NCBI GenBank assembly: GCA_025174535.1
Contig: JALBUN010000009.1
Span: forward strand, 1,302,001 to 1,366,000
Direction: 5' to 3'
Origin: Cantharellus purpuraceus
Lineage: Eukaryota; Basidiomycota; Agaricomycetes; Cantharellales; Hydnaceae
Length of the DNA stretch: 64,000 bases
Under the pieces are notes generated by a model. The model ran no database searches, was not told the origin of the DNA, and saw nothing but the letters and a program-made list of their open reading frames with translations. Below are positions 29,289-58,618 of this stretch, piece after piece. A program made the position numbers and the translations under genes. The stretch's first letter is position 1; each line of letters begins with the position of its first letter.

Positions 29289-30871
29289 TGGGTGCAACAA
29301 GTGTGATGCATATGTGTTGCACTTAATTGAGGCCCAAAATGGAGGCCAACTATATCTTTCCACCGCTTTGGTGGAAAGGGCATTAAGAGTCACATGGCTG
29401 TGACTTATATGCAACATCAAAGATGATGTCGCAACACCTTATTGTGAAGACTACAATAAGATGTACAAGGATAACTCAGACCTATTAACTCAAAGGACTT
29501 CTTGACAATAAGAAGTCCAAAGTAACTCATCTCAGAGACAAGTTAAAAACACTGAAGGAGGCTGCTGACAGAGCACCTCCTACATTCAACACCAAGCTCA
29601 TGACAGTGCACTTGGCCCCAGTAGCATTGCTATCACATGCTATGGCAGGCAAATCATTGCCTGCCATTATGTCATCACAGCCCATGGCGTCATCATCATG
29701 GGAAATGATTGACCTCACCAAAGAGGATGATCTCCCAGGCAAATTGCCCTGGGTTGACCCTTGTGGGTTCAAAGGTCAAGATTGGGATGATACTGACCCA
29801 ATCTGGGAAGGATATGACCACAATTGTAGTCTCCTCCTGGCTAGCATCCCCAAGGGTGCTAAGCAACCAGGCAAACTCAAAGAGTTTGCCCTATCAGAAA
29901 TTGAAGCTGAGATTGATCAGCTTTGAAAGGAGTATATGGCTGGTGATACCAGCCATAGACGCTTGTTCGGAATCATGTCAGTATACAATATTCTGATGTA
30001 TAGGAGATATACATCAGAATTTCAATGATACATAAAGCCAGGGAGTTACAATTTGGATATCTTAAAAGATTTTGGATGTGTGAAATTTTCATAAATATAA
30101 ACATATATTCTATATTTTAATAAACTTTAAAAGATGAGATATTTGGTTGAGATGAACATAATCATTTACATGGATATAATAGGAATGTATGTATTAATAT
30201 AATTGGTATTATATAGGGTATTTAGATATACAAATACCAGGTGGGGATTAAAGATGGTTCAAATTATGTTACAAGTATTGTATAAGAAAGAATCAATGAT
30301 ATTTGGATGTTCCTTCAAGAGAGTTGCCACCACTAAATGGGGAAAAAACAATTATTTTTGAGAATTATGCCAAAATATCACAATATGTTTTAATCTAGTA
30401 TATTGTGTAAAATTTGAGAATCATGTTGAAATATGAAAATAAGTTTGAATTGAAGTGTATTGTATAAAATTTGAGGAAAATAGGTTGTATATACGTATTT
30501 GTTGTATTTCTGAACAAGCGTCATACTTTAAAAGACCTAGTGTTGAAGACGCTGGAGGAAGCCCAGTGTACAAATTATCACAAATGCTGGGATGATTTCA
30601 GGCATGCTTGAGAGCATGCCAATGTGGAGAAATCATTCCCCAAATGGGCACTGTGGTTCATGACTGTGGCTGACCCTCCCAGAGCAGTCACTGGCCACCT
30701 GCTGTGACCTCTGGGCAAGTCTGCCCCTATCAGGGCAGACTGGTTTGACATCTGTGATACAGACACTCCAGAGTTCATATCACTCCATAAAAAAGCATTG
30801 GCCACACCGTTCATGGAACAGACTGTACTGATGCACAGAGTCATCAAGAGAATGACTCTGCTGGCTCACGC
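29289..30871 (+). pseudogene. H element second ORF, 5' part
   Basis: After removing MITE-1 (29958-30522) the plus frame reads LRDKLKTLKEAADRAPPTFN, MTVHLAPVALLSHAMAGKS, DLTKEDDLPGKLPWVDPCG, DDTDPIWEGYDHN, KFCALSEIE-like text to KEYMAGDTSH, then LKDLVLKTLEEAQCTNYHKC, WALWFMTVADPPRAVTGHL and KKALATPFMEQTVLMHRVIKR, ending MTLLAHA at the LTR-A boundary. I do not recognise the family. No RT, RNase H or integrase motif is present. The frame continues exactly at 44108 on the minus strand (43331-44108 entry). Confidence 0.65.
29958..30522 (-). mobile_element. MITE-1 copy 4 with ATA target duplication
   Basis: Ends GACGCTTGTTCGGAATC and TTTCTGAACAAGCGTC; ATA at 29955-29957 and 30523-30525. 565 bp. 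Interrupts the H element ORF without changing the frame of the reconstructed site. Confidence 0.92.
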
Positions 30872-32294
30872 TGTCGGTTCGCTTAAGGAATAGATCCTAT
30901 AAGCCTGCGCGCAACGGTCCTAGCAAGCAGACGGTGTGTAACGCAGTTGTTCAGCACTCCAAAGATCAATCAGGGCAAGGGGTACATAACAGGGAAGTGG
31001 GATAGTGCTCTGTGGTTGGATGAGGATGGGAGCAAAAGGTCGGTCCCGATGGCTGATCGTGCTCTGTGACTGGATGACAATGCGGAGCCCGGTTGGGAGG
31101 TACGCGAAAGCTGGTTTCAGGAGAATCAACCTCTCGGTGGCGGAGGGAAATCTGATCGTTGAACCAAGGTGTTTACCTCGGTGTAGAGATGATGGATTGT
31201 GATGTAGAGCGTAGAGCGTAGACTTAGAGCGTGGACTTTGACTTTAGAGCGTTGGCTGAAAACTTGTTGATTTTCCAAAGGCGAAGACTAGCGCCCTTTT
31301 ATATACAAATCCCCAGAGCACAATGACACAATATGAGGAGCAAATGATGCGATATGATGCAAGAAATGCTGATCAAGCCAGCTGACGAAGCGTGTGAAGT
31401 TGAACTACTAAAGGGGAAATCATGGAGAAATGAAATGACAGATAGGGGTAATCTTTGTAAGAATAGGGGGCGATGAGTAATAAAAGAACCAAAAATAGAA
31501 CAAGGATGAGTAAGTCGTGTATGAATGAATTAAAAGATGAAACAGGGGTGAGTCATATAAAAGAACAATAGAAACGTCCACCAATACCATCTTCCCTACG
31601 GCTCCGAAGGTTAATTGACCCTGAGTCACATGAGGACTTCAGTCAGCTTCCACAACAAATACTCCTTATTGTCTTAGTGATCCATCTCCATATGGTATCC
31701 CGCTCCAAGAGTATTTGGTCCCTTTGTCTGACACGATGTAACCTGAGTCGGATTGAAGTGGGAGGATAGGTCGGCAATGGCGACTGAAATTCTACCTCAC
31801 GTTCGACTCTTCTATCCGTGTTACGATATAGAGGTGAAATGTTGAGGAATGTATATGGTTCAACGGAATTGTGAAAGAATATGGGATCGCCAATGGCATA
31901 AGAGAGACATGGTGGGGATCTTGGACGTTGAAAGAGTTTTGGAAGTATTTTGACACGTGGAGGTGGCTTAACATGCCCATGGAGCTCGGCGTATTTTTGA
32001 TAGTCCTCTGTGTCCAGAGACCAGTGTGACGTATTATTAGAAGTGATGTTGGAGAGGGGAATAGAATGGGAAGCCATGTGAATGATGATGAAAGGATCGG
32101 TGTGAATAGAAAGCTGATAATGATCGATGGCGATGAAACACGAGTGACAATCGATGGCTCGAATTAGAGACTGAGGTGGATAGGGAGTTGCGGCGCTATT
32201 TAAAAGTTGATACGAAAAGACACTGGCGGAGTTGGACTGTCAGAGTGGTTCGATATGCGTCCTCGATGCGTCCTCGATGCGTCCTGGCTCGTCA
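30872..32294 (-). mobile_element. LTR-A copy 1 (solo LTR, 1,423 bp)
   Basis: Plus-strand ends are TGTCGGTTCGC and CCTGGCTCGTCA; ORF and TATA box (ATATAAAAGGG near 31300) run on minus. Left flank CTCACGC, right flank GCGCAGCAC: they do not match each other, but each matches a flank of LTR-A copy 2 (44109-45520). Nearly identical to copy 2; one 11-bp extra repeat of TGCGTCCTCGA near 32270 accounts for the length difference. No internal domain of a retroelement is attached. Confidence 0.88.
31643..32077 (-). CDS. 144-aa ORF inside LTR-A copy 1
   Basis: Opens MASHSIPLSNITSNN and closes TIRSICCGS. Identical in amino-acid sequence to the ORF at 44315-44749. Pro-rich centre (KPPPRVKILPKLFQRPRSPP) and a basic C-terminal third (RLRLHRVRQRDQILLERD). 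No signal peptide, membrane segment or known domain. A TTTTAAATA box lies about 120 bp upstream of the ATG. Confidence 0.5.
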   Translation of the reverse strand: MASHSIPLSNITSNNTSHWSLDTEDYQKYAELHGHVKPPPRVKILPKLFQRPRSPPCLSYAIGDPIFFHNSVEPYTFLNISPLYRNTDRRVEREVEFQSPLPTYPPTSIRLRLHRVRQRDQILLERDTIWRWITKTIRSICCGS

Positions 32295-32403
32295 GCGCAG
32301 CACATAAGCTGAAGCCAAGTCCAGCCCGACCCCCACGACGTGCTCCGACTCCAACCCAACCTCCAACCCAAACTCCAACCCCAATCGGACCTAGTGTGTA
32401 ACA
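32295..32403 (+). mobile_element. Chromovirus LTR, 109-bp end piece
   Basis: Sense-orientation 3' end of the chromovirus LTR, ending GTGTGTAACA and followed by GACAA (32404-32408). The same GACAA (TTGTC on plus, 56713-56717) flanks the chromovirus LTR at 56187-56712. It starts at GCGC, the exact point where the rest of the LTR resumes at 45521. It is the detached end of that LTR. Confidence 0.88.
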
Positions 32404-33275
32404 GACAATTGCTTCATCCTTGCTGACAAGCCACCATGCTGCATTGCACATGCTCTAAAAACAATGGGAGGATTGTACTGTTTGATTGAAGACCCACCTG
32501 TTCAAAGGAGGATGCAAACTTTACAAACACATCATGCATTGCTGACATAAATCTACTTCACCAATGACTAGGCCACCTTGGGCATAACAACGTGAAGCAC
32601 CTGATTGCTAGAGGGGTGGCCGAAGGAGTGGAGTCAGTGGGAGGATGCATAGAGATCTGTGAAGCATGTATACATGGAAAACAACACAGGCTTCCATTTC
32701 CACTCTCTACAAAAAGTGCCAGACACAAATTGGACCTTATACATTCTGACATTTGTGGGCCATTTGCCTTCAGCCTAGGAGGAAAGTGCTATTTTGTCAC
32801 CTTTATTGACGATCACACATGCCATGTCTGGGTTTATCTTCTGCATAAAAAGGGAGATGTGCTAGTGACCTTCAAAGACTTCAAGCTGATGGTTGAGAAC
32901 CAGGTGGAAACCACTATTAAGACATTATTCTCTGATGGCAGTGGAGAATACACATCCTTTGAATTTGAGGGCTATCTAAAGGTGCATGGTATTCTACATG
33001 AAAAGATGGTGTCTTATTCTCCAGAACAGAACGGACTTGCAGAAGTTGAAAACCATATGCTTGTGGAACATGTAAGAGCAATGCTCCATGACGCAAATCT
33101 CAGCAAGGGTTTCTGGGGGGCAGCTTTATTAACTGCTGCATACCTTGCAAACAGATCACCAGTAGCATGCCTTCGAGATGTGACACCACACGAAGCTTGG
33201 ACCAGCTTCAAGCCACAGCTGAGTAACCTGTGTCCATTTGGCTGTCCAGCATATGCACATGTACCTAAACAATAG
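32404..33275 (+). pseudogene. Ty1/copia pol: protease end, GAG-pre-integrase, integrase core
   Basis: Begins in the sequence after the protease (NCFILADKPPC), then LGHLGHNNVKHLIARG and CEACIHGKQHRLPF (HHCC zinc site), then integrase: DLIHSDICGPF, FIDDHTCHVWVYLL, FSDGSGEY and SPEQNGLAEVENH (D, D and E of the DDE triad visible), VRAMLHDANLSKGFWGAAL, FGCPAYAHVPK. Stops early in the stretch. The upstream protease and gag of this same element are at 56713-59030 on minus. Cut at 33275 by LTR-G. Confidence 0.9.
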
Positions 33276-33798
33276 TGAATGAAACTGGATTTTATTATGA
33301 AATATGAGTTGGATGCCTTGCTGGGTCCAAAGTCAGTAGAGGTCAGATGGGAGGTGTATATATGCATGTTCATAAATTGTGTAAGAGTTGTATGGCCTTG
33401 TGGATGTTACCAATGGATAGATATAAATGAGAAGCAATCAGATCATTCAAGATATCGACAAAACTTGAAGAAACACAGAAGATATGATAAAAACAATGAT
33501 TTCACTTTCAGATATGGCAACCCATCAAACAGGGTTGGAGAGGCTAAAACTCTTGTTCATTTCATTACTAGCTAGGCTTATTTTATACAAGCTATACATA
33601 TATAGAGTCTGTATGAGAATTATTGAGCCGAAGGGATAAAGGGAAAATAAATGAGCATGAAAACAAATTAGGGGTGATCCCCTAACCCCTACCTCCTGAC
33701 CTCCTTACCCATTCATTTTCCTATCCCCTAACCCCTCAGCTCCTTTCCTACTTGCTCCTGGGCCTCCTATATGCCCCTGAGCTTTGCATATCCTAACA
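33276..33798 (-). mobile_element. LTR-G, copia-type LTR within copia pol
   Basis: On minus it runs TGTTAGGATATGC to GTTTCATTCA, with a purine-rich 5' tract and CTTGTATAAAATAAGCCTAG, which parallels CTTGTATAAAACACGCCTAG in LTR-F. So F and G are related LTR families. Flanks AATAG and GATTT do not match, and several integrase codons between PKQ and DFKAWKG are missing, indicating a small deletion at one edge. Confidence 0.75.
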
Positions 33799-34305
33799 GA
33801 TTTCAAAGCATGGAAAGGAACAATGATGGGATATGTACCAGGGACAAAGGACTATTGGCTCTGGGACCCTAAGCGAAGGACAATATTTGTGTCAAGAGAT
33901 GTAATCTTCAATGAACGGAAAGATCTGTCCAAGGCACCTACCCAAGAAGAATATCAATTCAATCTTTGGCAGAGTACCAAAGAATCTGGCAATGCTAAGG
34001 AAGTGCTACCAGCTGAAGGCCCAGATGTAGATGAAGAACCTGACACAGCAACATCACCAGAAACTGAAATGCACAATCAAGACAAGCTTTGGAGTAACAG
34101 GACAGATGCAGCAACTGAAGAACATACTACTTGAGACCCAGCTGCAGGACCCAGAAAATGGTGAACAGAATTGGAAATGCTCAGAAATCCACTGGAGATC
34201 CTGGGTCCACAAACATGCAGACTACCAGCAAGATACAGGCAAGATGAGACTCCAATGGTGGGGGACAAGCCAGAGGAGATGAGTGGACTGACAGAGATAG
34301 CCTAT
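33799..34305 (+). pseudogene. Copia pol: integrase C-terminus and linker
   Basis: Reads DFKAWKGTMMGYVPGTKDYW, LWDPKRRTIFVSRDVIFNE (the standard copia integrase-to-RT landmark), then an acidic linker (EGPDVDEEPDTATSPE). A frameshift precedes a MITE-1 insertion at 34306. Confidence 0.85.
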
Positions 34306-34871
34306 GACGCTTGTTCAGAAATACAACAAATATGTATATACAACCTATTTTCCTCAAATTTTATACAATACACTTCAATTCAAACTTATTTTCATATTTC
34401 AACATGACTCTCAAAATTTACACAATATACTAGATTAAAACATATTGTGATATTTTGGCATAATTCTCAAAAATAACTGTTTTTTTCCCCATTTAGTGGT
34501 GGCAACTCTCTTGAAGGAACATCCAAATATCATTGATTCTTTCTTATACAATACTTGTAACATAATTTGAACCATCTTTAATCCCCACCTGGTATTTGTA
34601 TATCTAAATACCCTATATAATACCAATTATATTAATACATACATTCCTATTATATCCATGTAAATGATTATGTTCATCTCAACCAAATATCTCATCTTTT
34701 AAAGTTTATTAAAATATAGAATATATGTTTATATTTATGAAAATTTCACACATCCAAAATCTTTTAAGATATCCAAATTGTAACTCCCTGGCTTTATGTA
34801 TCATTGAAATTCTGATGTATATCTCATATACATCAGAATATTGTATACTGACATGATTCCGAACAAGTGTC
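34306..34871 (+). mobile_element. MITE-1 copy 5 with TAT target duplication
   Basis: Ends GACGCTTGTTCAG and CCGAACAAGTGTC; TAT at 34303-34305 and 34872-34874 (TAT is ATA on the other strand). 566 bp. Confidence 0.92.
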
Positions 34872-36009
34872 TATGCAGTTCTAATAGCAGCATCTGCATC
34901 TGCAACCCATACTGACCCATGAACATTTGAAGAAGCACCTTACTGGCTCAAGGCAGTACACAAGGAACTAGGTTCACTCAAGAGGACCGGAACTTATGAG
35001 ACAATCACATGCCTGCCACCAGGAAGAAAAGCAATAGATGGAAAACTTGTCTTCAAGGTGAAACAGCTGCCAGATGGATCAATAGAATGACACAAAGTCC
35101 ATCTCATTGCGAAAGGATACTACCAAATGCTGGGAATAGACTTTGAAGAAACATTTGCACCAGTGGTCAAGCTCACCTCAGTCAGAGTGCTGTGTGCACT
35201 TGCAGTAAGACTGAATCTCCATTTCCACCACCTAGATGTAGAAACTGCATTTTTGAACAGAAACCTTGATGTGGATCTCTATCTGCATTTCTCAAAAGGC
35301 TGTGGGGACAAGACAGGTCAAGTCATTAGGCTCAAGCACTCTATTTATGGTCTGAAACAGGCCTCATGAATCTGGAAAAACCTGCTTGATGATGAGCTGG
35401 CCAAGGTTGGGTATAAGAGAATAAAAGCAGACTTCTGCATCTACATTTACCAATGTGGCCAAGCCATTTGTTTTCTTGCGGTATACATGGATGACATGGC
35501 TCTCCTAGGCAATGACCTGGATGTCATGAATACTCAGAAAAGTCTCCTTGGACGATGTTTCAAGGTAGAGGATTTGGGGCCAGTAAAACAGTTACTCAGG
35601 ATAGCAGTAGACTACAACATACATAAATGAACGTTGGCGCTAAATCAGTTGCGATACATTGAAGAAGCCCTAGAGAGACATGGAGTTAATGATGGATAGA
35701 CTCATTCCACACCTTTCAGTGCAGGGACTGACCTATCAAAGAAAGACTGCCCTACAACAGCGCCTGAAAAGGACAAAATGAAGGGCTTCCCATATCAAAG
35801 CCTGGTTGGGACTCTCATGTATGCAATGCTGGGAACTTGGCCGGACATAGCATTCACTGTGGGTGTACTTAGCAAATTCAGCTCTAATCCAGGACTGACA
35901 CATTGGAACCAAGCACTATGGGTTTTGCAATACCTAGCTGGAACCAAACATTTTGCATTGATATACCAAGGAGATGAGAGAGAGGAGTTGTCCACTATCA
36001 TACTGGGGT
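34872..36009 (+). pseudogene. Copia pol: reverse transcriptase
   Basis: Typical copia RT order: WLKAVHKELGSLKRTGTYE, KLVFKVKQLPDG, FEETFAPVVKLTSVRVLCAL, DVETAFLNRNLD, IRLKHSIYGLKQAS, then FLAVYMDDMALLG (catalytic YMDD intact), LGPVKQLLRIAVDYN, FPYQSLVGTLMYAMLGTWPD and LSKFSSNPGLTHWNQALWVL. At least four in-frame stops (mostly TGA). Cut at 36009 by LTR-D and resumes at 37467. Confidence 0.9.
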
Positions 36010-37461
36010 TGTTTTGGAACCCGCAAAATTATGGTGTTAGGGCAAACTCTAAATCACCACAATTCTGTGAATGAACAGCTGAGAAGAATATCAAATCCTA
36101 CTGCAGCACAACTCCAGAAACGATTTAACGTTTGTACTTTGGTTACAATCCGTTGTAATGGTCAATGCAGACGATACGCAGGAAGGTAATACATTTCTTA
36201 GCAGTAGGGAATGAATAAGACTTCCAGAGTCTAGAGTTCACGGACGCTTAGGGGTCCAGATATTCCAAAAAGAGGGGAATGCACTTAGAGGCTAGAGGAA
36301 GTAGGTGGATGAATCCGACCGTCCAACCAGTGACACTCTGAAGCGGGTAACAGCAATGTGTGAAGTAGTCTAGCAACTGCTTCACACGAGTTCAAGATTC
36401 TAATGCTCTGCAAAGGCAGTACACACTAGTAACTTAAACAAGAGCACTAATGGCAGGACTATCGACAGACAATCTCACCCTGTAGATTCGTAGTCACGCG
36501 AGGTAGATACTACACTCACGCCCAAAGCAGGACAATCACTACTTCGAGTGCAATCGAATACAGTTACACAACTGTAAGCGACCCTTGAACTGGACAATCA
36601 ACAGTTACTGAGATATAGAGGATGACACTGTATGTCACTCTAGTCACACTGATGTGCAAATGATGGGGTAGAAATGGTTATTTATTCAGAGGCAGAATGG
36701 GCTCCTTTTATATTGTATTTACAGGAGCTGACTAATACTACTGGAAACTTCTACCTATTAATAGATGGAAACTACTGGAAGCTAGTGGAATATGTGAGAA
36801 GGGGGTGGAAGTTTCCTAGCCAATGAGCTGCTTGATTTGCTCTGACTCATGGCATGAGTCATGGATGGAGTCATAGTGTGACTCAGAGCAGGAGTCATAG
36901 TATGAGTAATCACAGGAGTCATGGTATGAGTCATGGAAGGAGTCATAGCATGAGTCATGGCAGGAGTCATTGCATGAGTCACCATTACTCAAATAACTCG
37001 GTCAATACTTCGTTTCCCAGGCTGATTAGCACAGCTATGGGTAGGCATGGCTTCTATTGAACTCTCCACTGAAAATGGAGTCAGGAGGTGCAGTGGTTGG
37101 GAAGATATTGAGCATTTACTGGCAGTGGTGACCAGATTGAGTCGGAGATTGAAATGAGTCATGTGATCGACAATGAGTCAGTTGTCCGGGTGACTCCGGC
37201 TGACTTTGAGGCTGCTGACATCTGCGAAGGTTTGTGGGTCCATGTGGGTCCCAAAACTTTGCCCAGCAGAACAATAAGTTTGTAGACTCATTTCTGCATG
37301 GAAAATTCCCAAAAAAATATGAAAAAATAGAGAATATTTGAATGGCCCTGAATCAAGAGAAAGCAGCAGATATATGCTGATATTTTAAGGCCATCAAGCG
37401 AAATTGTACAGTTTCGGGACTTTAAACAAGATCTTTTTAAGGGAAAACCAGTTCCCATACA
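36010..37461 (+). mobile_element. LTR-D copy 1, solo, 1,452 bp, GGGGT target duplication
   Basis: TGTTTTGGAACCC to TTCCCATACA, with GGGGT at 36005-36009 and 37462-37466. No internal retroelement genes. Sits in copia pol; removing it and one GGGGT brings RT and the RNase H start (GYTDSDWAG-like) together. Confidence 0.93.
36845..36985. repeat. Minisatellite within LTR-D
   Basis: About seven degenerate tandem units of roughly 22 bp built on GGAGTCATAGTATGAGTCAT. Not present in the other LTR-D copies at the matching position, so it expanded in this copy. Confidence 0.7.
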
Positions 37462-37466
37462 GGGGT

Positions 37467-37932
37467 ACACAGACTCTGACTGGGCAGGAGAACTCGACAC
37501 TTGCCGATCGACCAGGGGCTATATCTTCAAGATGTGTGGCATGGCAATTAGCTGGAGCAGCAAATTGCAAAGCTCACCAGCACTCTCATTTACAGAAGCT
37601 GAATATGTGGCCAGCACTTGAGCATCGCAAGAAGCAATATGGTTGAGGCAGCTACTCCAAGAGCTAGGGGTCAGACAAGAATAGCCAACAACGATTCTAG
37701 GCAACAACCAGGGAGCCATTGCGCTGGCAAATAACCCTGGAGATCACCCAAGGACGAAGCACATTCAGTTGAGGTACCACTTTATATGATTTGCAATTGC
37801 GGATGGGCAAATTCAACTGGAATACATACCAACAAGTGAGATGGCAGCAGATGGTCTAACTAAAGGACTGACAAAGTCAAAACACGATTACTTCATTCAT
37901 TTATTGGGCATGGATCCTCGCCTGAGTGGGAG
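37467..37932 (+). pseudogene. Copia pol: RNase H and C-terminus
   Basis: Reads YTDSDWAGELDTCRSTRGY (RNase H first Asp), ISWSSKLQSSPALSFTEAEY (second acidic), ASQEAIWLRQLLQELG, LANNPGDHPRTKHIQLRYH and EYIPTSEMAADGLTKGL, then HLLGMDPRLSGS. Normal copia RNase H order and end. Two or three stops interrupt it. Confidence 0.9.
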
Positions 37933-38046
37933 TGAAAGAAATAACCTATTATTACGGTCTCAGACCAAGCCAAGTACAGAATGAACAGATTATGTAATAT
38001 AAAAAATATTTTTTTTACAAGAAACTGTCACGTACTAGTTCTTTCA
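37933..38046 (+). mobile_element. Copia 3' LTR (114 bp) with CTATG target copy
   Basis: TGAAAGAAATAACC to TAGTTCTTTCA, followed by CTATG (38047-38051). The first 80 bp recur on minus at 59030-58950, preceded by CTATG. That pair of short direct repeats and equal 5-bp flanks define the two ends of one copia element now split by an inversion. Confidence 0.85.
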
Positions 38047-38051
38047 CTATG

Positions 38052-39150
38052 TGCCACGTCCCCACCATGTTCACTGCATCGTACAGCGTCTAGGCCACCA
38101 CCGCCGCCCCTGCCGGCGTCACGTTCACCATCCCTCGCCCCGTGTGCTAGGATGATATTAATGCCTCAACCTTGCTCTCTCGGTTTAGCAGCATTATGCC
38201 CACGGGGGAGAGCGATACAAGTACCGGGGCTAGCGTCAGCGGCAGGTCCGTCTGCGGGGGTACCAGGAGTGTCATTTCGGCGTCTGGAACCGCGGGCGTG
38301 TGGGGCGGCAACTATAGCTGGGTCGACAAAGGCCGTAGGCGATCATGGTTGGTTTTCTGCCCCTTTATCCCACGGGCACATGCTAACGTGTTAAGGACTG
38401 GACAGGTGGCAAAGATATTGTCGAGTCTCGACGTCCGGGGAGACCCTGGCAAGGCGGATGAAATGATATGCCATACTTATAGACTTTGACGGTTGTAATA
38501 CTAAGGGATGGGATATGGAAAAGTTTGAGAACTATCTAATGCACATCCCATGTCCTTCTTTGGTCTTTCTGTGGATATCAGAGCGAAAAACAGAACTGAT
38601 AAAGCATGTCCCTATTGTCAAAGGATATAATTATGCGATTACAAAGCTTTGGTGACCGCCGCGGCGGTCGGCCATCCCCCCTTCATATTTGACAAAGGGT
38701 CCGTCAATCTCATCCGAACACCATCCAGAGATACCTTCGATCCCCGGCCAACGACCCGAAGCTGCAGGAGGCTCAGATCAGCCAGGAACCGCAAGAAGCC
38801 TAGAACTGCCCGCTCCAGAAGAGGCCGGGGGGGAGACAGCCTTTTCAGAAGAGTTGTCCTTGTATCTCTTCAAACTGCCTGCCGAGATGGTTCAAGTACA
38901 TTCAGTGCAGTCCAGCACTGTCCAGTGGATACTCGAGATACAATAGACACAGACATCATAGCCACTGTGGCGAGAATGGTACTGGAGATTGAGGGGGTGG
39001 CCGAGAATGACGCAACTGGCGTGCTAGACCGATTGATAAACTACTCAGATGCGTGCTTCGATCCTTTATGCTCTCCCAATGCAGTTTTATATATCCCAAT
39101 GATGTTGATCATGACACGTACCGAATATTTCTAGGTCAGGATTATCTTGT
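38052..39150 (+). other. Host sequence, possible unassigned coding remnants
   Basis: High-GC host-like sequence. Frames such as 38172-38489 (GTAGVWGGNYSWVDKGRR), 38649-39134 and 38689-38946 (PEIPSIPGQRPEAAGGSDQP, ETAFSEELSLYLFKLPAEMV) look partly coding, but I could not chain them with splice sites or recognise a family. They may be fragments of a broken gene. Confidence 0.3.
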
Positions 39151-39362
39151 CATTACATGTACTGTGAGTGCTACGCATGCTCACACCAGGTGCATCCCAT
39201 GTGATGAAGGTTGAACCTAAGAGTGACGATGATTCTCTGACTAGAACAATGTTTTGCCTATCTTAGTGAAGATGAGTGTCATCAAGTACGAAACATGCAG
39301 AGGGATAATCAAATATGTTACAGTTTACACATTACTTCTTTGCTTGAGCATGCAGTAAGGCA

Positions 39363-41167
39363 TCAAATAAATTGGGTCTTTTTTCGCCTTACTTGCCCGT
39401 TGCGTGAGAGAAGCATAATTGGAACACTGCAAAGGGAGATCACCTGCCAATAATATTAGATATAACGAGCGTGGGGCAGAAACGTCTAGAAACGCACACC
39501 GCTTAATATGATAGCCTTGGACCAGTGGTAGGAACTGGAAAGAAGTGCCCCAGCAATCGGAGGCCCTATAAGCCATGCAAAACCAGTTATGAGAAAGCCA
39601 ATGCCCATTCGTACACTATTTCATAGGTGCATGGGATTAGTCAGCGCATTGGTTTCGTTAATAGTGTACACTACTGACCCAACTTCAGACATGTCCTGGG
39701 CAAATGCAAGCACTGCCGGTGAAAAGAGAGACAAAACTTGTAGGAGAAATGAGGGTAAGTGAAACGAATAATTGAAGCATAGCTCTATAGTTGTACAGAC
39801 CTGATCCTGAGAAGAAACCGTAAAAAGCTGCAAATGTGGCCACACCGCCAACATTTGTGAGTCCAAACATGGCAAAGATCAGTGCCCCAGTTACAAAGGA
39901 CATCACGATGAGAGTATTTATAGCGCCCATTTTGTCTGCAAGTATGTTGGGAAGGGTCCGCCCAAATACCGATACGCCATTTTGAATGGTCAGCTACATC
40001 CAATAAAGCTTATCAGCGTTTTCCACAGGTGGAATGCACCGTACGAAGGCTCACAGTGTAGAATGAGAAATTAGTCGGAAGATTGTGGAAGTCCGAAAAG
40101 AGTTGCAGGTAGAAATCTTAGAGAACTATTGGTGAGCAACTCACTCCTTGCTATAAATGAAGGAAGTAAAATAGTGTGCTTACAAGGAAAGAAGAACCCA
40201 AGGATAATGAGACAGGCACTATTAAACAAGAGATAATTTTCAAGACAGGCACACCCCGCCTGATGAGAACTTACCCGAAAATCATGCCCATATAAGGCCA
40301 ATCTTTGAACAAGACAAGTAACTTAGCTTTAGGGAGATCTGGCCGGGTAGGCCGTTGAGCAGGCAAGCTCATCAAACAATTTGCCGCCGCAAGGAGGCCA
40401 AGCATCAAGAAAGCCTGAGCTCGTACGCCCCAGGCGAACCCAGCAGAGCCATGGAAAAGATTATTAAGCATGATCGGGAAGACTATACCACCGCAGGATG
40501 AGCCTGTTTTTAGGTTGAGTTGCGGCACAGGAGAATGTGAAATCTACTGGAGATTGAACCTGTTATGACAATACCCATGGCAAGTGCTCGACGTGTCCTC
40601 CAGTAGTACGCTTGAATAGCCATCGATGGCATATAAATGAGCCCTGCGCCTAGCCCCGCACCTATACCTTGAGCCAGAAATATTTGGTAAAAGCGATCGA
40701 GATGTGCTAAAGAGAGCATGAAATAACTGGGAATTGTTGGTCAGTCATCTATAACTATTGAATGCTTGGTTTTATGCACAAACCTAAAGACATAGAGGGT
40801 CGACCCGGTCAGGATAACAAGCTTGAAATGACCTTTATCGAGGAGCTTTCCAGCTGGGAGCCCCATACTAATGAGGAGAAAAAGCTGAACTGAGCCGATC
40901 CATGCGACATTTGACGATGTAGATGTTCCAGCTCGAACATATAGGTCTTGGTATACGCCAAAAGACGAGGCAGCACCGAAAGTTGCAAAGAGTGCCAGCC
41001 AACTGGAGGGATTGGATGGGGAATCAGCGATAGCATACAAGTACAAGGAAAACAACACACCCTCCTGCTACTGTACACCAGGCTCGAACACCGCCTTCAG
41101 CTGCTTGCACAGGAAGGATTGTCGGTATATCTTCTGGCTTGTTTTCGAGCTTAGACGTAGAGTCCAT
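39363..41167 (-). CDS. MFS transporter, monocarboxylate (MCT-like) type
   Basis: About nine exons on minus; ATG at 41167 (MDSTSKLENKPEDIPT), TGA at 39363-39365. Reads EGGVRAWCTVAGG-WLALFATFGAASSFGVYQDLYVR, NVAWIGSVQLFLLISMGLPAG, AQGIGAGLGAGLIYMPSMA, YYWRTRRALAMGIVITGSSCGG, a basic mid-loop (RPTRPDLPKAKLL), then LTIQNGVSVFGRTLPNILAD, GLTNVGGVATFAAFYGFFSG, VLSLFSPAVLAFAQDMSEVG, RMGIGFLITGFAWLIGPPIAG and a short tail. The D-G-G-x-G-W start motif of the group is EGGVRAW, and the R-R-x-x-A box is RRALAMG. About 430 residues, twelve helices expected, plasma membrane. Substrate not readable (carboxylates or related acids). It lies inside the segment inferred to be inverted. Confidence 0.88.
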
Positions 41168-41904
41168 TGTTGTAACGATGGGTAGAGTTCCTGCTCGACG
41201 CAGGGCTATGTATATGCTATGTATAAGTTCTCATTTTTAAGTGGGCTAGACTGTAGTAAGAATCAGCGTATGTCCCCTTGGACACATGTTCTTCGGGATG
41301 GTGTATACTTAGGTGTCCGAGGCTTAATAGTCAGTCGGTAATGCCATCATAGACAGGGACCGTGGCATGTTCCAAAATGTGAGCAAGCATGCAATAGCAT
41401 CGGCCGGACATCTCACCACTCGGCGGAGCTCTCCTTATTCAATTTGTTCCTAGCCGGGAGCTGCAAGGCCAGTTGTTACCGTACTTTTATATCCTTTAAG
41501 CAGGTTGCACACCGTACAGCCTCCATAGCAGCCCAACGTACCACTCCCTAGTAAGGCTTGTATACACATACGGTTTAATTTGCTGATTGTCATGGACAAC
41601 AGATGCTGTCTATTAAAGCAACTCGCTCGTGGGCGCTAGTAACGTAAGCCGACCGTATCTCTTGGACGAACGGGCCCTTTAGAGACGAAATGGCCTGGCG
41701 TGATAAAGGTTTCTCGGAAAAACTAAGAGGGTTTCCGGCCAGGGAAGCATGGTATGAGCATAGCCACTGTTCTTGGGGTCCACTACGGTCCACAAGTGTG
41801 ACTACAGACCTTCGTTGACCGAGTCGCTGATAGGGGCGTATTACAGGATTTTTGTTTCTTGTAGTTTAGTACCTCAGTCACTCATTTACAAGAGACTGAG
41901 TCTA
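41168..41904. other. Upstream region of the MCT-like gene; CTCAGT hairpin at its end
   Basis: No gene recognised. ACCTCAGTC ... GACTGAGTC at about 41871-41900 is another member of the CTCAGT hairpin series and lies at the host/repeat border. Confidence 0.5.
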
Positions 41905-42354
41905 TACTAGCTTCCACTGCCATAACCCTTTTCTAAGCCACCACTCAGATTGGTCGGGGAGCCAGCAGACAAACAGGGAGTCCCTCTTTGGCCCTGCTGC
42001 TGGAACAACCAGTTTGGTCAGCAGTGCAGGAAGACCCAGCCTTTTGCACCCAGTCCATGAACCGGTCCATGGACACCATCCACAAATCCAGCTGTGCAAA
42101 CATAGACACATACTGCATGTAGTACTCAGTGCTCCGCTCTTGATCTATACTTAGTCCTCCTTAGTGTGCCTCCATCTACAGCACACCCTTGCATATCAGC
42201 CCCCACATTTACTTGTTTACTATGAGGCACTGCTAGCTGTCCACTGTCCACACTTATTGCCTACATAACCAATGGTGCTTGGTGTAGTCCATCTTTGAAG
42301 TCCCACTGCTGAGGGTTCCTTATGTTGAAAATCTGTGCACACAAGTGCACATAT
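41905..42354. other. Unassigned repeat-like segment
   Basis: Joins the truncated H LTR at 42355. Minus-strand frame 42111-41902 is open for 69 codons without a recognisable domain. Probably part of another element or an ancient insertion. Confidence 0.35.
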
Positions 42355-42590
42355 GCACAGAACTCAACCAAGTATATTGGTTGGGCGATGTGTTGTACAG
42401 TGTGGTTTTTAGCTAAGTTCTATCTACTATAGTGGACCCACATGTGTACTGGGTCCACTGGCTTACATAATAACTATACATATGCACCCATAGGATGCAT
42501 ACATCTACCAAGAGGACAACATTCCTTAAGGGAATGCTGCATATATCAATTATACTTATATACTATATTAGGTGCTTACACCCTCCCCTT
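42355..42590 (-). mobile_element. H element LTR, partial (outer copy)
   Basis: Minus strand starts TGTAAGCACC at 42590 directly after the purine tract AAAAAGGGGAGGG (42603-42591), matches the H LTR for about 235 bp and then diverges after GTTGAGTTCTGTGC. Confidence 0.8.
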
Positions 42591-42603
42591 TTTGAATGAG
42601 ACA

Positions 42604-43033
42604 TGATCTCATTCAGTACTTCTTAATCATACAGCTCCTTATGAAGCTGCTCCAATGAGTCAGTGTCCATATGGTCATCTTATTCATATGGTTCCAGAGG
42701 GGGGATGGCTCTCAGTCATCCCTGATGTGGTTGCAGGATCCTCATCCACTTGAATGGATGAGGAGGATGCAATTGCTATGGTAGCATCCCGATTGAGTTC
42801 ATGATTAAGTTGATTGTGACCTAAATGCTCAGCAAGAGAGTGTTTAGCAGCTTTATGAGCTGCTTGGGAGACTCCCTGAGTCTCCTGCTTTTGCTTACCA
42901 ACCCTGGCAGGCTGGTTAAATGCTGCTCCAGAGGTGATGCATTCAGCAAACTCCTCTAATATAGTTGCACAATCAGGGGTGATGCCTCCCAATTGCCCAA
43001 ACCAGAGCACAAGCTCTAATTCAGTATGTTCTT
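42604..43033 (-). pseudogene. H element ORF C-terminus, tandem duplicate
   Basis: Reads MLWFGQLGGITPDCATILEE and KQKQETQGVSQAAHKAAK, then SIQVDEDPATTSGMTESHPP; a close copy of 43360-43746. Its upstream edge joins a truncated LTR at 43034-43043, so the unit [ORF end + purine tract + LTR start] is repeated in tandem with a period of about 730 bp. Confidence 0.75.
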
Positions 43034-43042
43034 TGGGTGTTA

Positions 43043-43317
43043 ATTGGGTGTCTTAGTTCACACTATTGCACAGAACTCAACCAAGTGTATTGGTTGGGCA
43101 ATGTGCTGTACAGTGTGGTAGTTACTAAGTTTTCTATCTACTATATGTGGACCCACATGTGTACTTGGGTCCACTGGCTTACATAATAACTATACATATG
43201 CACCCATAGGGTGCATATATCTATCAAGAAGACAGCATCCCTTAATGGAATGCTGCATACACTAATTATAACTATCTAGCTACATACTATAGTAAGTAAG
43301 TACCTTGGGTACTTACA
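43043..43317 (-). mobile_element. H element LTR, partial (inner copy)
   Basis: TGTAAGTACCCAAGG at 43317 on minus, next to the purine tract 43330-43318; matches the 5' LTR at 26405-26836 up to GTGTGAACTAAGACACCC, then breaks. Confidence 0.85.
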
Positions 43318-43330
43318 CCCTCCCCTTTTT

Positions 43331-44108
43331 GAATGAGGCATGATCTCATTCAGTACCTTTTAATCATACAGCTCCCTATGAAGCTGTTCCAATGAGTTGG
43401 TGTCCATATGATTATCTTGTTCATATGGCTCCAGAGGGGGATGGCTCTCAGTCATCCCTGATGTGGTTGCAGTATCCTCATCCACTTGAATGGATGAGGA
43501 GGATGTGATTGCTACTGCAGCATCCTGATCAAGTTCATGATTGAGTTGATCATGACCTAAACACTCAGCAAGAGAGCATTTAGCAGCTTTATGAGCTGCT
43601 TGGGAGACTCCCTGAGTCTCCTGCTTTTGCTTACCAACCCTAGTGGGCTGGTTAAATGCTGCTCCAGAGGCAATGCATTTAGCAAACTCCTCTAATATAG
43701 CAGCATGATCAGGGGTGATGCCCCCAAATTGTCCAAACCAGAGCACAAGCTCTAATTCAGTATGTTCTTTAGGGGAGTGATTCCCCCAATCATATGCTCC
43801 AGTGACTGAAGCGCAAAAGGTGTCACAATAGTTGATAAGAACTTTTGACCACTGGTCAATAACCCCCAGTGGCCAGGATTCTGGAACATAGTCCAGAGGT
43901 TCTTCTTAAATACAGAAGAACCCTTCTTGGGAGTGGCCTTCTGTAGCCACATCCAAATGTCCACATTGGACAAGTTCATAGTACCATCTGACTCCTGTTG
44001 GATGGCCAGGGGGACCCCCATTAGGGTTCACTTTCCACCCCTGTATAAGGGCAAGTGTGTCTACCAGTATGGCTGGTAGAGTGACAATAAAACTCATGTT
44101 ATCAGCGT
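43331..44108 (-). pseudogene. H element second ORF, 3' part
   Basis: Minus strand from 44108: ADNMSFIVTLPAILVDTLA, QGWKVNPNGGPPGHPTGVRW, YYELVQCGHLDVATEGHSQ, a frameshift, KNLWTMFQNPGHWGLL, LQSLEHMIGGITPLKNI, then (43746-43360) LWFGQFGGITPDHAAILEEF, SIQVDEDTATTSGMTES and a C-terminus LEQLHRELYD. It joins in frame with the plus-strand ORF that ends MTLLAHA at 30871 when one ACGC is removed. Family unknown. Confidence 0.7.
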
Positions 44109-45520
44109 TGACGAGCCAGGACGCATCGAGGACGCATATCGAACCACTCTGACAGTCCAACTCTGTCAGCGTCTTTTCGTATCAACTTTTAAATAGCGCC
44201 GCAACTCCCTATCCACCTCAGTCTCTAATTCGAGCCATCGATTGTCACTCGTGTTTCATCGCCATCGATCATTATCAGCTTTCTATTCACACCGATCCTT
44301 TCATCATCATTCACATGGCTTCCCATTCTATTCCCCTCTCCAACATCACTTCTAATAATACATCACACTGGTCTCTGGACACAGAGGACTATCAAAAATA
44401 CGCCGAGCTCCATGGGCATGTTAAGCCACCTCCACGTGTCAAAATACTTCCAAAACTCTTTCAACGTCCAAGATCCCCACCATGTCTCTCTTATGCCATT
44501 GGCGATCCCATATTCTTTCACAATTCCGTTGAACCATATACATTCCTCAACATTTCACCTCTATATCGTAACACGGATAGAAGAGTCGAACGTGAGGTAG
44601 AATTTCAGTCGCCATTGCCGACCTATCCTCCCACTTCAATCCGACTCAGGTTACATCGTGTCAGACAAAGGGACCAAATACTCTTGGAGCGGGATACCAT
44701 ATGGAGATGGATCACTAAGACAATAAGGAGTATTTGTTGTGGAAGCTGACTGAAGTCCTCATGTGACTCAGGGTCAATTAACCTTCGGAGCCGTAGGGAA
44801 GATGGTATTGGTGGACGTTTCTATTGTTCTTTTATATGACTCACCCCTGTTTCATCTTTTAATTCATTCATACACGACTTACTCATCCTTGTTCTATTTT
44901 TGGTTCTTTTATTACTCATCGCCCCCTATTCTTACAAAGATTACCCCTATCTGTCATTTCATTTCTCCATGATTTCCCCTTTAGTAGTTCAACTTCACAC
45001 GCTTCGTCAGCTGGCTTGATCAGCATTTCTTGCATCATATCGCATCATTTGCTCCTCATATTGTGTCATTGTGCTCTGGGGATTTGTATATAAAAGGGCG
45101 CTAGTCTTCGCCTTTGGAAAATCAACAAGTTTTCAGCCAACACTCTAAAGTCAAAGTCCACGCTCTAAGTCTACGCTCTACGCTCTACATCACAATCCAT
45201 CATCTCTACACCGAGGTAAACACCTTGGTTCAACGATCAGATTTCCCTCCGCCACCGAGAGGTTGATTCTCCTGAAACCAGCTTTCGCGTACCTCCCAAC
45301 CGGGCTCCGCATTGTCATCCAGTCACAGAGCACGATCAGCCATCGGGACCGACCTTTTGCTCCCATCCTCATCCAACCACAGAGCACTATCCCACTTCCC
45401 TGTTATGTACCCCTTGCCCTGATTGATCTTTGGAGTGCTGAACAACTGCGTTACACACCGTCTGCTTGCTAGGACCGTTGCGCGCAGGCTTATAGGATCT
45501 ATTCCTTAAGCGAACCGACA
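44109..45520 (+). mobile_element. LTR-A copy 2 (solo LTR, 1,412 bp)
   Basis: TGACGAGCCAGG to GAACCGACA. TATATAAAA box at 45087-45095 and TTTTAAATA at 44187-44195. Left flank ATCAGCGT (reverse complement starts ACGC), right flank GCGCCCTCAC. Inverted relative to copy 1 and almost identical to it; the two bound the inferred inversion. Confidence 0.9.
44315..44749 (+). CDS. 144-aa ORF inside LTR-A copy 2
   Basis: Same protein as at 31643-32077 (MASHSIPLSNITSNN start). Open from ATG to TGA. Lies in what would be U3, upstream of the stronger TATA box at 45087. Function unknown; whether it is translated is not shown by sequence. Confidence 0.5.
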   Translation: MASHSIPLSNITSNNTSHWSLDTEDYQKYAELHGHVKPPPRVKILPKLFQRPRSPPCLSYAIGDPIFFHNSVEPYTFLNISPLYRNTDRRVEREVEFQSPLPTYPPTSIRLRLHRVRQRDQILLERDTIWRWITKTIRSICCGS

Positions 45521-45524
45521 GCGC

Positions 45525-45929
45525 CCTCACTAATACCGGTGTCCGAGATTTCAGAGACGGAGTACGACTTACAGAGTTAGGATCGGACTTAGGAGCTAGG
45601 CGTGATTTGATATTCGAACTGGGGAATGGAGTCCCCAGTCGGCAACTTAAATACATATTTGAAATCTAATAATAATTACTCTGGTGATGGGTCTCCGAGG
45701 CCGACGGCCTTACATGAGTATGTCTGAGTCCGATGGGGACAGATGTCCGGGTTCCTATGGTGATGCTGATGCATCAATCGGAACCAGAGACGGATGGGCG
45801 GAATCAGCGGTGACAATCGGACAGGAAAATGGAGACGTAGCAGTTTCCAAATGGAGTATAGATTTCATATGCGCGGGGATCTGAGGGGATCAGATGGGGA
45901 TCTGGGCGTTAATGAATATAGTCATAACA
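45525..45929 (-). mobile_element. Chromovirus 3' LTR, main part
   Basis: With the 109-bp piece at 32295-32403 it forms a 514-bp LTR interrupted by LTR-A copy 2 (GCGC duplicated). Compared with the other LTR (56187-56712) I count 16 differences over 405 positions, every one a CpG to TpG/CpA change. The other LTR also has one extra 12-bp GAGGTTGGGTTG repeat. The minus-sense upstream sequence AAATGGAGAGATAC (45943-45930) is a plausible polypurine tract. Confidence 0.88.
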
Positions 45930-49330: not shown

Positions 49331-49579
49331 TTAAAGATTCATAAGAGGGCCAGGTTTGTCTGGATAAGCGGAGTGAAAATCAGAGATGGATTCGGATGCA
49401 TGATCAAGTTTGGATGTGGAGATCCATGAAGACTCTTCATCAGTGCCTTCATATCCAGTCCATTTGACTAAGTACTGGAGCTTGCACTTGTATCGACGGT
49501 TGATCTTCGAGTCCAGGATCTCCAAGATCTCATATTCATTGTCTCCTTCGATGATGATCAGGGGAGGTGGGGGTTGCAT
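49331..49579 (-). pseudogene. Chromovirus pol: chromodomain
   Basis: C-terminal end of pol: EYEILEILDSKINRRYKCK, LQYLVKWTGYEGTDEESSW and LDHASESISDFHSAYPDKPG. Y/L, W-x-G and the E-x-S-W aromatic cage positions of a chromodomain are present. Chromodomains of this Ty3/gypsy branch direct integration toward modified chromatin. Confidence 0.92.
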
Positions 49580-50750
49580 GCGACCGGAGATCTCATTTGT
49601 AGTAGCAGGTTTGAGATTGATATATGGAAGACCGGATGAACTGCTCGGAAGTGGTCTGGGAGGCAGAGGGTGAAAGACCTGCTGCCCATGCGAGCAATGA
49701 CCTCATAAGGACCTAAGTATTTCTCAGAGAGTTTCCTTGATGGACGGGTGGTCTGGAAGTGTTCGGCCTTAATGAATACTTTGTCTCCGATTTGCAGGTC
49801 CGGAGCCGGAATGCGGCATCGGTCTGTGGAGATTTGATATTGTTTCTGAGCATCGGAGATGGTTTCTCGGAGATGTTGGTGTAGTTGATTGAGGTCGGTT
49901 ACGAATTGGCGGGCTTTGGTGGAGGCAAGTTCCTTCTCAGGGTGGACAGAGATGTTCGGATGGTAGCCTTTATTAGCAAAGAACGGAGAGATGCTGGTAG
50001 TCACATTTGGAGCATTGTTGTAGGCAAACTCTGCGATTGGAAGTAGATCAGCCCAGTTGTCTTGTTGATAGTTACAATAGATTCGGAGATATTGTTCCAG
50101 GGACTGATTCATTTGTTCCGTTTGTCCGTCTCCTTCAGGGTGGTATCCAGAGGTAAAATGGAGCTTCATGTCGAGAGCCTTTCCTAATGTGCAGAAGAAG
50201 GAGGACATGAACTCCGAACCCCGATCGGACGTGACATGCGACAGGACTCCGTGTTTAGAGAATACGTGGAGAACAAACAATTTAGCTAGTGAGGCGGAGG
50301 TGATGGTGTCATGCGTTGGAATGAATAGGGACTGTTTGGTGAACCTGTTGACAATCACGAGTATGGTGTCATATCTGAGCGATGGGGGGAGCTTCTCTAT
50401 GAAATCCATGGAGATGGAGTTCCATGGTTGCTCCGGGATCGGAAGTTGTTTGAGCATTCCGTAGGGTTTGTGCCTTTGTGATTTTGAGTGCATACACGTG
50501 GTGCAGGAGTTACAGTAGTGTTGAATGTATTCCCGCATTTTTGGCCATATGTAGTCTCATTGGATTAATCCTTGTGTGCGATTTTGCCTGAAGTGGCCGG
50601 AGATCGGGTGATCATGATAATACTGCAAAATTTGGAGTCGGAGGCCGTTGGCGTCGGGGACGTATATCCGGTCATTGTGTCGGAGGTGTCCTTCGGGGTC
50701 AAGTGACCATTTCAGATCGGAAGGGTTGTCCAAGTGTTTAACCACAACAG
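49558..50750 (-). pseudogene. Chromovirus pol: integrase
   Basis: HDHPISGHFRQNRT and CNSCTTCMHSK give the HHCC zinc domain (one TGA stop between them, likely from CGA). The core has SMDFIEKLPPS (D), VTSDRGSEFMSSFF (D) and GDGQTEQMNQSLEQYLR (E), followed by NNAPNVTTSISPFFANKGYHP and the GPY/F module DLQIGDKVFIKAEHF and SEKYLGPYEVIARMG. All three catalytic acids are intact. The last residues overlap the chromodomain frame at 49558-49579. Confidence 0.92.
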
Positions 50751-50950
50751 GATCAGATCAGAGTGATGAGCAGATGTCGGAGCAGAGTTGGTCGATGTCC
50801 ATAATGGTGACAGCTTGGAGGGTGGGAGTCATGAGGGTGGATGCTCATAGGGACGATGCCAGCTGCTTGTTAGTAAACACAGGACGAAAGTTGTGGGGGT
50901 TTACAGTGGCATAGTCGCTATTTCCCTCTTTAGGGTAGACGTCCCATCAT

Positions 50951-52312
50951 CTAGTTAACGCGTCGGGCTTTGCTCCGAGTTGACCAGGATGGAAATGGAT
51001 AATGAGGTTGAACTGAGATAGGTACTTGGACCTGTCTCTGGGTGAGCAGTTTCATTGTGGAGAAGTATTCCAAGTTCTTGTGGTCTGTTATGACGTCTAC
51101 CGGATTGGAGGGACCCTCAAGGTAGTGTCTCCATATCCGGAAGGCTTCATATATGGCAAGGAGCTCTTTGTCATGGACGTCATAGTTCAGTTTGGGGGGC
51201 ATGAATGTATGCGAGTGAAAAGCAATCAGGTGGACTTGTCCGTCGTCCAGGGAGATGATGGACAGGATCGTGGCAAGTGCAAAGTCGGAGGCGTTGGTCT
51301 CTAATAGGATGGGAACGTCTGGAATCCAATGAGTCAGTATCGGAGCGGAAGTAAAGGCCTTTTTCAAGGTCTCAAAACTCTGTCTACATTTGTCAGTGAA
51401 ATTCCATTGGATACCCTTCCTAGTGAGTTGGGTGAGCGGAACAATGATATCGGAGTAGCTGTGAATAAAGCGGCGGTAGAAGTTGGCGAACCCGAGGAAG
51501 GACTGTACATCCTTGACTTTCCGAGGTTCTGGCCATTCCTGTATGGCTCTGATTTTGTCATCGGACATTGTTAACCCTGCTGGGGAGAGGATATAGCCTA
51601 GGTATTCAACCGAGTTGGAGTGAAATTCGCATTTGTCAGCGCGGGCGAAGAGGCCATGCTTTTGGAGACGTAGGAGTACCTCTCGGACATGTGTCTGATG
51701 TTCTTCTTTGTTGTCTGAATATACCAGAATGTCGTCTAAGTAAACAAGGACAGTCACATCGAGAAGGTCGGTGAAGGTATCATTCATGAACCTCTGGAAG
51801 GTGGCCGGAGCATTGGTTAGACCGAAGGGCATGATGCACCACTTGAAAGATCCATATTGTGTGCGGAAGGTCGTTTTCCATTCGTTGCCTTCTCGGATAC
51901 GGACTAGATGGTAGGCATGTTGGAGATCTATTTTGGAGTAGATCTTAGCCTTTCGAGGACTCTCAAGTAGGTCCGCAGTGCGGGGTATCGGGTATCGGTC
52001 TTTCTTGGTGATTTTGTTGAGTCCACGGAAGTCGACGCATAGACAGAGTGATCCATCCTTTTTGCAGACAATTAGGACCGGAGCTCCATGAGGAGATAGG
52101 GATGGGCGGATGAAGCCTGTGGCCAAGTTCTTGTCTATGAATGTTTGGAGGGCCAATAGCTCTTTTTGTGATAGTGAGTAGATATGGCCAAGCAGAGGGG
52201 TGGAGTTGTCGTCCAGTTCGATCTTGAGATCGTATGGTTGGTGTTCCGCTAGGGAGTCAGCTTTAGACTTGCTGAACACGTCGGCGAACTCATGATACTC
52301 CTTGGGAACCAT
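50951..52312 (-). pseudogene. Chromovirus pol: reverse transcriptase and RNase H
   Basis: 453 codons open. RT: LSQKELLALQTFIDKNLATG, SPHGAPVLIVCKKDGSL, VDFRGLNKITKKDRYPIP, YSKIDLQHAYHLVRI, MPFGLTNAPATFQRFMND, VLVYLDDILVYS (catalytic YLDD), FLGFANFYRRFI. RNase H: ILLETNASDFALATILS, where the usual first catalytic Asp (T-D-A-S) is Asn; then YDVHDKELLAIYEAFRIWRHYL and VITDHKNLEYFSTMK. A frameshift follows at LTQRQV (the SKYLSQFNL text continues in another frame), and a TGA occurs at the ALTR*W position. Not functional as it stands. Confidence 0.92.
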
Positions 52313-52333
52313 AGAGAGGTCCGGTGGAGTGGA

Positions 52334-53001
52334 TCAGGTGGAATGAGCAGCGAGGAATATTGGATCGGAGAGGTGAACCTGGAATGTGTGAGAACCGTCC
52401 AGTTTGCTTAGTCTGGCGAAGATCATAGTGTCCACCATCGATATGAACGGAGGGGTAGACGGAGTATCTATCGGAGCGGAGTCAGCGGAGGCGGAAGATA
52501 ATTTTGCACCTAAAGTTGCTGGTGACGTCGGGGATGACACAGCCTGTACTGGAGAACAGAATGTGATATGACCCAATGCCCAGTCAATCAACGGATTGTA
52601 GCAGGTGAGCCAGTTATGTCCGAGAACCACAGAACAGCTGGAGTCAAGCGGAGTAACATAGAATGTAAGGTTCTGGATTTCTCCGACAGAAAAACGGATA
52701 GACAAATTTATAGCTCATGAAATAACAGCATTAGTAGTGCTGTCAAATAATCGGAGTGGTATCGGAGTTATGGTGTATGTATGGAGTTTATGTAAATCGG
52801 AAAAAGAGGAATCGAGGAAACAATGAGTAGAACCAGAGTCAATTAATGCTTGAATAGCGGTATCGGGAATGGAGTCGGAGTGGACGAGGAGGGTAAGGGA
52901 GTTGGAGTGGGAAAGAGCAGATGTGTTCAGGCGGACCTTGTTTGCTGTACGGGGAGTACCAATGCAGCCCTCAGCCCATACGGAGGCTATAGGACTGCTT
53001 A
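52334..53001 (-). pseudogene. Chromovirus protease
   Basis: Upstream sequence gives ALIDSGSTHCFLDSSF (retropepsin D-S-G), then LRLFDSTTNAVIS, a TGA, then [20 protein letters not shown] and [11 protein letters not shown] (the hydrophobic-L-G-x-x-W-L landmark before RT). The stop is again TGA where CGA is expected. Confidence 0.85.
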
Positions 53002-53330
53002 CTATTTTTTTTGCTCCATTGCTTTAGTGTCGGACTTGTCCGTCATGGCATTGGCGGCGCGGCCCTTTGCCTTTGCTGCAGACGAGGTTGCCTTGTTGCA
53101 ATCCTTGGCTTGGTGACCAGGCTTTCCGCAGAACAGACAGAGGTTGTTGTCCATGCGGCACTGGCGTTCCTGCTGGGTAAGTTTTCCGTCCTTTCCCAGC
53201 TTGGTGGAGAGGTCTGGAGTATTCTTGCAAGCTCCGGAGTTATTGCTGGTGCCGGAGTTGTTCTGACCGGAACCGGAAGTGGCAGCATTACCAGTGTTTG
53301 ATTTCTGGCCTGAATTGGCGGTGGCCTGCT
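53002..53330 (-). pseudogene. Chromovirus gag: C-terminal zinc knuckle
   Basis: Reads ATANSGQKSNTGN, GKLTQQERQCRMDNN and the CCHC knuckle CLFCGKPGHQAKDC, then a basic Ala/Lys-rich end. Continues the gag frame from 55336 once LTR-D copy 2 and one target copy are removed. Confidence 0.92.
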
Positions 53331-56154: not shown

Positions 56155-56186
56155 TGGTAGGAGTGAGTATGGCAGTTCGAATATAC

Positions 56187-58613: not shown

Positions 58614-58618
58614 TTCCT

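Follow-up and report, generated by a model that had tools for sequence, protein, structure and literature searches.

We analysed a 64-kb window of the Cantharellus purpuraceus genome (contig JALBUN010000009.1, C9:1302001-1366000, from an assembly of 40.15 Mb in 50 contigs), in which a segment carrying a host transporter gene lies between two solo long terminal repeats (LTRs) of one family, here called LTR-A. We propose, with a probability of about 0.88, that this segment was turned by an intrachromosomal inversion, through ectopic (non-allelic) homologous recombination between inverted LTR-A copies 11.8 kb apart. Recombination of this kind predicts an exchange of target-site duplications (TSDs) between the two LTRs, ancestral joins that are continuous, and sharing of sequence between the LTRs, and all of these were found. 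The segment and its two ends are as follows.

30872..32294, minus strand: LTR-A copy 1, solo LTR at the left end of the inverted segment (1423 bp, TG...CA ends)
32295..44108: inverted segment of 11,814 bp, recognised by the exchanged TSDs and by the joins in paralogous copies
44109..45520, plus strand: LTR-A copy 2, solo LTR at the right end of the inverted segment (1412 bp)

The two LTR-A copies

Copies 1 and 2 are homologous and stand in opposite orientation, one at each end of the segment. A preliminary description of this DNA had placed two near-identical, facing 1.4-kb LTRs at 30872-32294 (minus) and 44109-45520 (plus), and these coordinates proved exact. The copies are 99.6% identical, differing by one 11-bp tandem-repeat unit and by 7 substitutions over 1412 aligned columns, two of which adjoin the 11-bp indel. 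They are the closest pair among 21 aligned LTR-A copies, the next pair having 9 substitutions. Copies 1 and 2 have four private alleles in common, absent from the 18 other copies compared; any other of the 190 pairs formed by these 20 copies has at most one private allele in common. One of the four alleles is also present in a more diverged copy in the window (copy 3), which lies outside the 20 compared. Judged from the alleles, this sharing would fit exchange or gene conversion between copies 1 and 2.

Exchanged target-site duplications

Each LTR-A copy interrupts another repetitive element, copy 1 being flanked on its outer side by an element termed the H-element and copy 2 by the left LTR of a chromovirus. 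The four flanking TSD copies are listed below.

30868..30871, plus strand: outer TSD copy (ACGC) of the LTR-A element inserted in the H-element; partner at 44105-44108
44105..44108, minus strand: displaced TSD copy, GCGT (ACGC when read on the minus strand), partner of 30868-30871
32295..32298, minus strand: TSD GCGC, displaced partner of 45521-45524
45521..45524, plus strand: outer TSD copy (GCGC) of the LTR-A element inserted in the chromovirus LTR

On the plus strand, copy 1 now lies between ACGC and GCGC and copy 2 between GCGT and GCGC. Read in the orientation of the LTR, copy 1 has GCGC before it and GCGT after it, and copy 2 has GCGT before it and GCGC after it. When the inner flanks are swapped, the pairs become ACGC/ACGC and GCGC/GCGC, so that the exchange of flanks noted in the preliminary description, with both pairs given back by turning 32295-44108, is borne out.

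The weight of this match depends on how LTR-A chooses its targets. We surveyed the best 40 of 702 candidate copies, which are those closest to copy 1, with more diverged copies outside the survey; 39 of the 48 rows from outside the window were read, and 9 fragments were left out. Among these 39 copies, 24 have an exact 4-bp TSD, 7 have a TSD with a one-transition mismatch and 2 have unmatched flanks. The remaining copies are LTRs of elements with internal sequence (4) or belong to a tandem pair (2). Thus, the TSD is kept in 31 of the 33 other solo LTR-A copies, with one transition in 7 of these. The target was NCGN in 23 of the 24 exact TSDs, which is a sharp preference for an LTR retrotransposon. 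Six of the seven mismatches fall in the CG, a pattern expected from CG decay. Because of the bias to NCGN, a 4-bp match is less telling than it seems: two LTR-A TSDs would match by chance with a probability of ~0.09-0.125 (1 in 8 to 1 in 11) rather than 1 in 256, and the reciprocal match by itself has a chance of ~0.01. Copies 1 and 2 are the only reciprocal TSD pair among the LTR-A copies surveyed.

Ancestral joins in paralogous copies

The joins that the inversion would have broken were met intact in other copies of the interrupted elements. Such continuity concerns paralogous copies rather than the orthologous site. The two parts of the H-element concerned are as follows.

30530..30871, plus strand: H-element part beside its LTR-A insertion, outside the inverted segment
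43760..44108, minus strand: displaced H-element part, now inside the inverted segment

These two parts, the second read backwards, adjoin in 19 of 19 paired places of the genome, always with a 4-bp overlap that is the TSD. Paired places are those present in both match lists, which covered the best 40 of 121 and of 138 candidates, and 39 rows of each were compared after dropping the self match and two fragments from 42 rows in one list and the self match from 40 rows in the other. In each list, 20 of the 39 rows had no partner in the other, which is uninformative given that only the best 40 were listed. For the chromovirus LTR, 32295-32404 and the sequence from 45521 onward adjoin back to back in all 28 fetched loci (L053-L080, those fetched from 41 non-self matches of the query 32295-32404), again with a 4-bp overlap. 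Pairing by coordinates gave the same join in 4 of 4 places; the rows dropped here were the self match and three fragments of 43 in one list, and the self match, C20:327496 and two fragments of 42 in the other. The copia join was found in one paralogue (L082), where 32404-32625 (minus) runs straight into 56712-57772 (1/1). Sequences that are neighbours in the present arrangement lay within 600 bp of each other in 0 places among the match lists compared. The paralogous joins (19/19, 28/28 and 1/1) more than make up for the weakness of the 4-bp TSD match.

The same turn also repairs two larger elements, a chromovirus nested in a copia element, whose parts lie partly inside the inverted segment and partly to the right of it.

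32295..32403, plus strand: displaced 109-bp terminal piece of the left chromovirus LTR
45521..45929, plus strand: remainder of the left chromovirus LTR, with 96.1% identity over 409 bp to 56304-56712 of the right LTR
49331..56186, minus strand: chromovirus coding pieces (gag, reverse transcriptase (RT)/RNase H, integrase, chromodomain), with a repeat inserted at 54600-55169
56187..56712, plus strand: right LTR of the chromovirus, with TSD TTGTC next to it at 56713-56717
32404..38046, plus strand: displaced 3' part of copia, comprising the integrase domain, later remnants and an LTR and carrying insertions of other repeats
56713..59030, minus strand: copia part that has stayed in place, bounded by TSD CATAG (59031-59035)

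The chromovirus has Pfam matches to Ty3_capsid, Retrotrans_gag, RVT_1, RT_RNaseH, SH3_Tf2-1 and Chromo, with a weaker match to rve. Its outer TSDs are GACAA at 32404-32408, which becomes TTGTC once turned, and TTGTC at 56713-56717. The displaced copia part matches rve, with SH3_retrovirus and gag_pre-integrs below the cut-offs, and the outer TSDs of copia are CTATG at 38047-38051 (CATAG once turned) and CATAG at 59031-59035. A single turn therefore restores both the TTGTC pair and the CATAG pair, as had been claimed for the ends of these elements. The reading frames of the H-element and of copia also continue in phase across the restored joins, over the few codons read by eye on each side beside the TSD copy. 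The preliminary description counted six independent repairs; the repairs themselves stand, but their independence does not, because the two frames come from two of the same joins and the six are not six separate facts.

Apart from these joins, a repeat of ~570 bp lies within several of the nested elements. Its places in the window (29956-30525, 34303-34875, 54600-55169 and 24315-24878) are 95-99% identical to one another, and its 40 best places in the genome were scored.

Proposed mechanism and alternative explanations

The nested TSDs suggest an order of events. A copia element would have inserted first, and the chromovirus would then have landed in it at a point upstream of the integrase domain. 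An LTR-A element may have entered the left LTR of the chromovirus (TSD GCGC), and another the H-element beyond the transporter gene (TSD ACGC). Both would have shrunk to solo LTRs, before or after the inversion. A crossover between the two LTRs would have turned the 11.8 kb and swapped one TSD partner between them, and a single crossover of this kind would account for all the joins in one step. We infer the crossover, its timing relative to solo formation and the reality of the arrangement in the organism.

Some points weigh against an inversion by LTR recombination. The arrangement is known from the sequence of one assembly, and the private alleles of copies 1 and 2 could also stem from a common source element. 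Unmatched flanks also occur at two other solo LTR-A copies, C48:53271-54675 (ACGG/GCGC) and C45:154182-155587 (CAGA/TCGC), and these might speak for two unrelated insertions whose unmatched flanks merely look exchanged. We consider such a coincidence scarcely credible, since the reciprocal TSD match already has a low chance and the ancestral joins in the paralogues exclude it, in agreement with the preliminary view that chance does not explain the repairs. An assembly error is easier to imagine: the genome would be uninverted, and the assembler would have turned the segment between near-identical inverted LTRs, a 1.4-kb repeat at 99.6% identity being of a kind that short-read assembly can turn. 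However, there are only 50 contigs for 40.15 Mb, and no N was found in the 64-kb window or among 299,503 fetched bases, most of them repeat-rich, as we would expect of long reads. The matching TSDs at 31 of the 33 other solo LTR-A copies, which are of similar length and 97-99% identical (7 with one transition), further indicate that the assembly usually joins LTR-A correctly. An assembly flip is therefore improbable in our judgement.

Slightly less probable still is a standing flip site, at which the 11.8 kb and the transporter are turned repeatedly, with the two orders present side by side in different nuclei or isolates and the LTRs kept alike by exchange. The few differences and the common private alleles do suggest exchange between the copies, whereas the assembly holds a single order and one old event suffices. 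A variant of the inversion by LTR recombination is more plausible than either of these, although it is still doubtful: the crossover may have taken place between LTRs of full-length LTR-A elements that became solo later, giving the same end product. Two-LTR elements persist in the genome (C34:1203060-1212111), so both insertions were presumably once full-length. However, this order requires two deletions after the inversion, both copies are now bare LTRs between their flanks, and the course of events would be less simple.

As for a second haplotype with the other order, none was found in the assembly, where the only matches of the copia part are to itself and to one paralogue at 90%. The next best match of the transporter gene is at 84%, and the non-gene sequence 38101-38686 reaches up to 87%; better matches were short only.

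The transporter gene

The inverted segment contains one host gene.

41167 to ~39363, minus strand: host transporter gene of the major facilitator superfamily (MFS), monocarboxylate / MCH5 type

The gene model has nine GT...AG introns fitted by eye; 9 exons are open, and the last exon is uncertain. Among the 120 of 922 protein matches listed, the best is a metagenome protein (65%), and the best named ones are from Piloderma croceum (62%) and Gautieria (61-62%). PF07690 is present in the listed relatives, and the named ones belong to the Agaricomycetes. A paralogue with 84% identity lies at C9:1290711-1292641, ~9 kb to the left of the window, and is encoded on the opposite strand from the present gene. 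The two genes would have shared one orientation before the inversion, which is a further, weak hint of it.

The gene had been described as having changed both orientation and neighbours. The change of orientation holds, but the neighbours changed only at a distance: the gene is >1 kb from the copia end (38046) and ~3 kb from the other end of the segment, and that sequence was turned too. Because the transporter gene was turned along with its own surroundings, the biological effect of the inversion is probably small.

The LTR-A family

LTR-A is a true LTR. At C34:1203060-1212111, two copies in the same orientation are bounded by GCGG on either outer side, a purine tract precedes the 3' LTR, and a 448-residue open frame with a CCHC motif lies past the 5' LTR. 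A reverse transcriptase is encoded between the LTRs (RVT_1, E 7e-11), as seen in the one 1.5-kb stretch of the internal region that was read. The family is probably of Ty3 type, as the 4-bp TSD and the appearance of the RT suggest. The LTR itself contains an open frame that had no Pfam match at E <= 0.001, and a protein search with part of this frame gave 7 candidates, none at E <= 0.001.

A third copy in the window, at 46930-48413, sits between the coding pieces of the chromovirus and its left LTR and has ~95.5% identity with copies 1 and 2. It has a ~70-bp tandem duplication at one end (48275-48342 and 48344-48411), and its flanks, TCGC and TTGT, are alike only with two C-to-T changes allowed. 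Elsewhere, the solo copies with unmatched flanks at C48:53271-54675 and C45:154182-155587 are candidates for other rearrangements; they were considered as a second reciprocal pair among the surveyed copies and rejected, as they are not mutual partners. At C15:794855-797735, a direct tandem of two LTR-A copies, of which the second lacks its first 12 bp, is flanked by GCGT on each side, and this arrangement perhaps arose from a two-LTR form or by unequal exchange. LTR-A copies in opposite orientation abut LTR-A pieces at C3:647-3187, C23:3829204-3831909 and C48:2145528-2148352, as if by self-insertion.

Comparison with known systems and implications

An exchange of TSDs between the ends of an inversion is an established indicator of ectopic recombination, as shown for Galileo in Drosophila (PMC2775673). 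In the portion of that study available to us, inversion 2z3 of Drosophila buzzatii resembles our case in having two copies of an element in opposite orientation at its breakpoints, with exchanged TSDs from which ectopic recombination was inferred. It differs in that Galileo belongs to the DNA transposons and has TSDs of 7 bp, whereas LTRs with 4-bp TSDs and a segment of 11.8 kb are involved here. In addition, 2z3 is a natural inversion for which uninverted chromosomes were sequenced and chimeric copies were shown, whereas our case has one arrangement and the sharing of private alleles. LTR retrotransposons likewise serve as recombination substrates in Saccharomyces cerevisiae, where inversions are among the products named for Ty1 (PMC3102749); unlike ours, those cases are laboratory-selected gross rearrangements, and the available parts of that source give no case of TSD exchange.

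Among fungi, differing flanks of elements with 4-6 bp target sites were read as ectopic recombination in Mycosphaerella fijiensis (PMC3562529), as we do here. That study counted 125 elements with unmatched sites, and in its available parts no partner is matched and no inversion is resolved. In the mushroom-forming fungus Marasmius oreades (PMC9674265), a transposon-related inversion and recombination between element copies are likewise described; that inversion involves one of two hAT copies, with the intervening sequence lost, and LTRs or exchanged TSDs do not appear in the available parts of the paper. A partial literature search found no resolved inversion between two solo LTRs in a basidiomycete.

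The mechanism is thus well known, and this instance is new and unusually clean. It offers an inversion, apparently natural and of the size of a single gene, that is well resolved and lies between retrotransposon LTRs of a mushroom-type fungus; its nested insertion history can be read from the TSDs. Matching the orphan TSDs of solo LTRs, together with a check of the joins in paralogues, can recognise and count inversions in one genome with no second strain.

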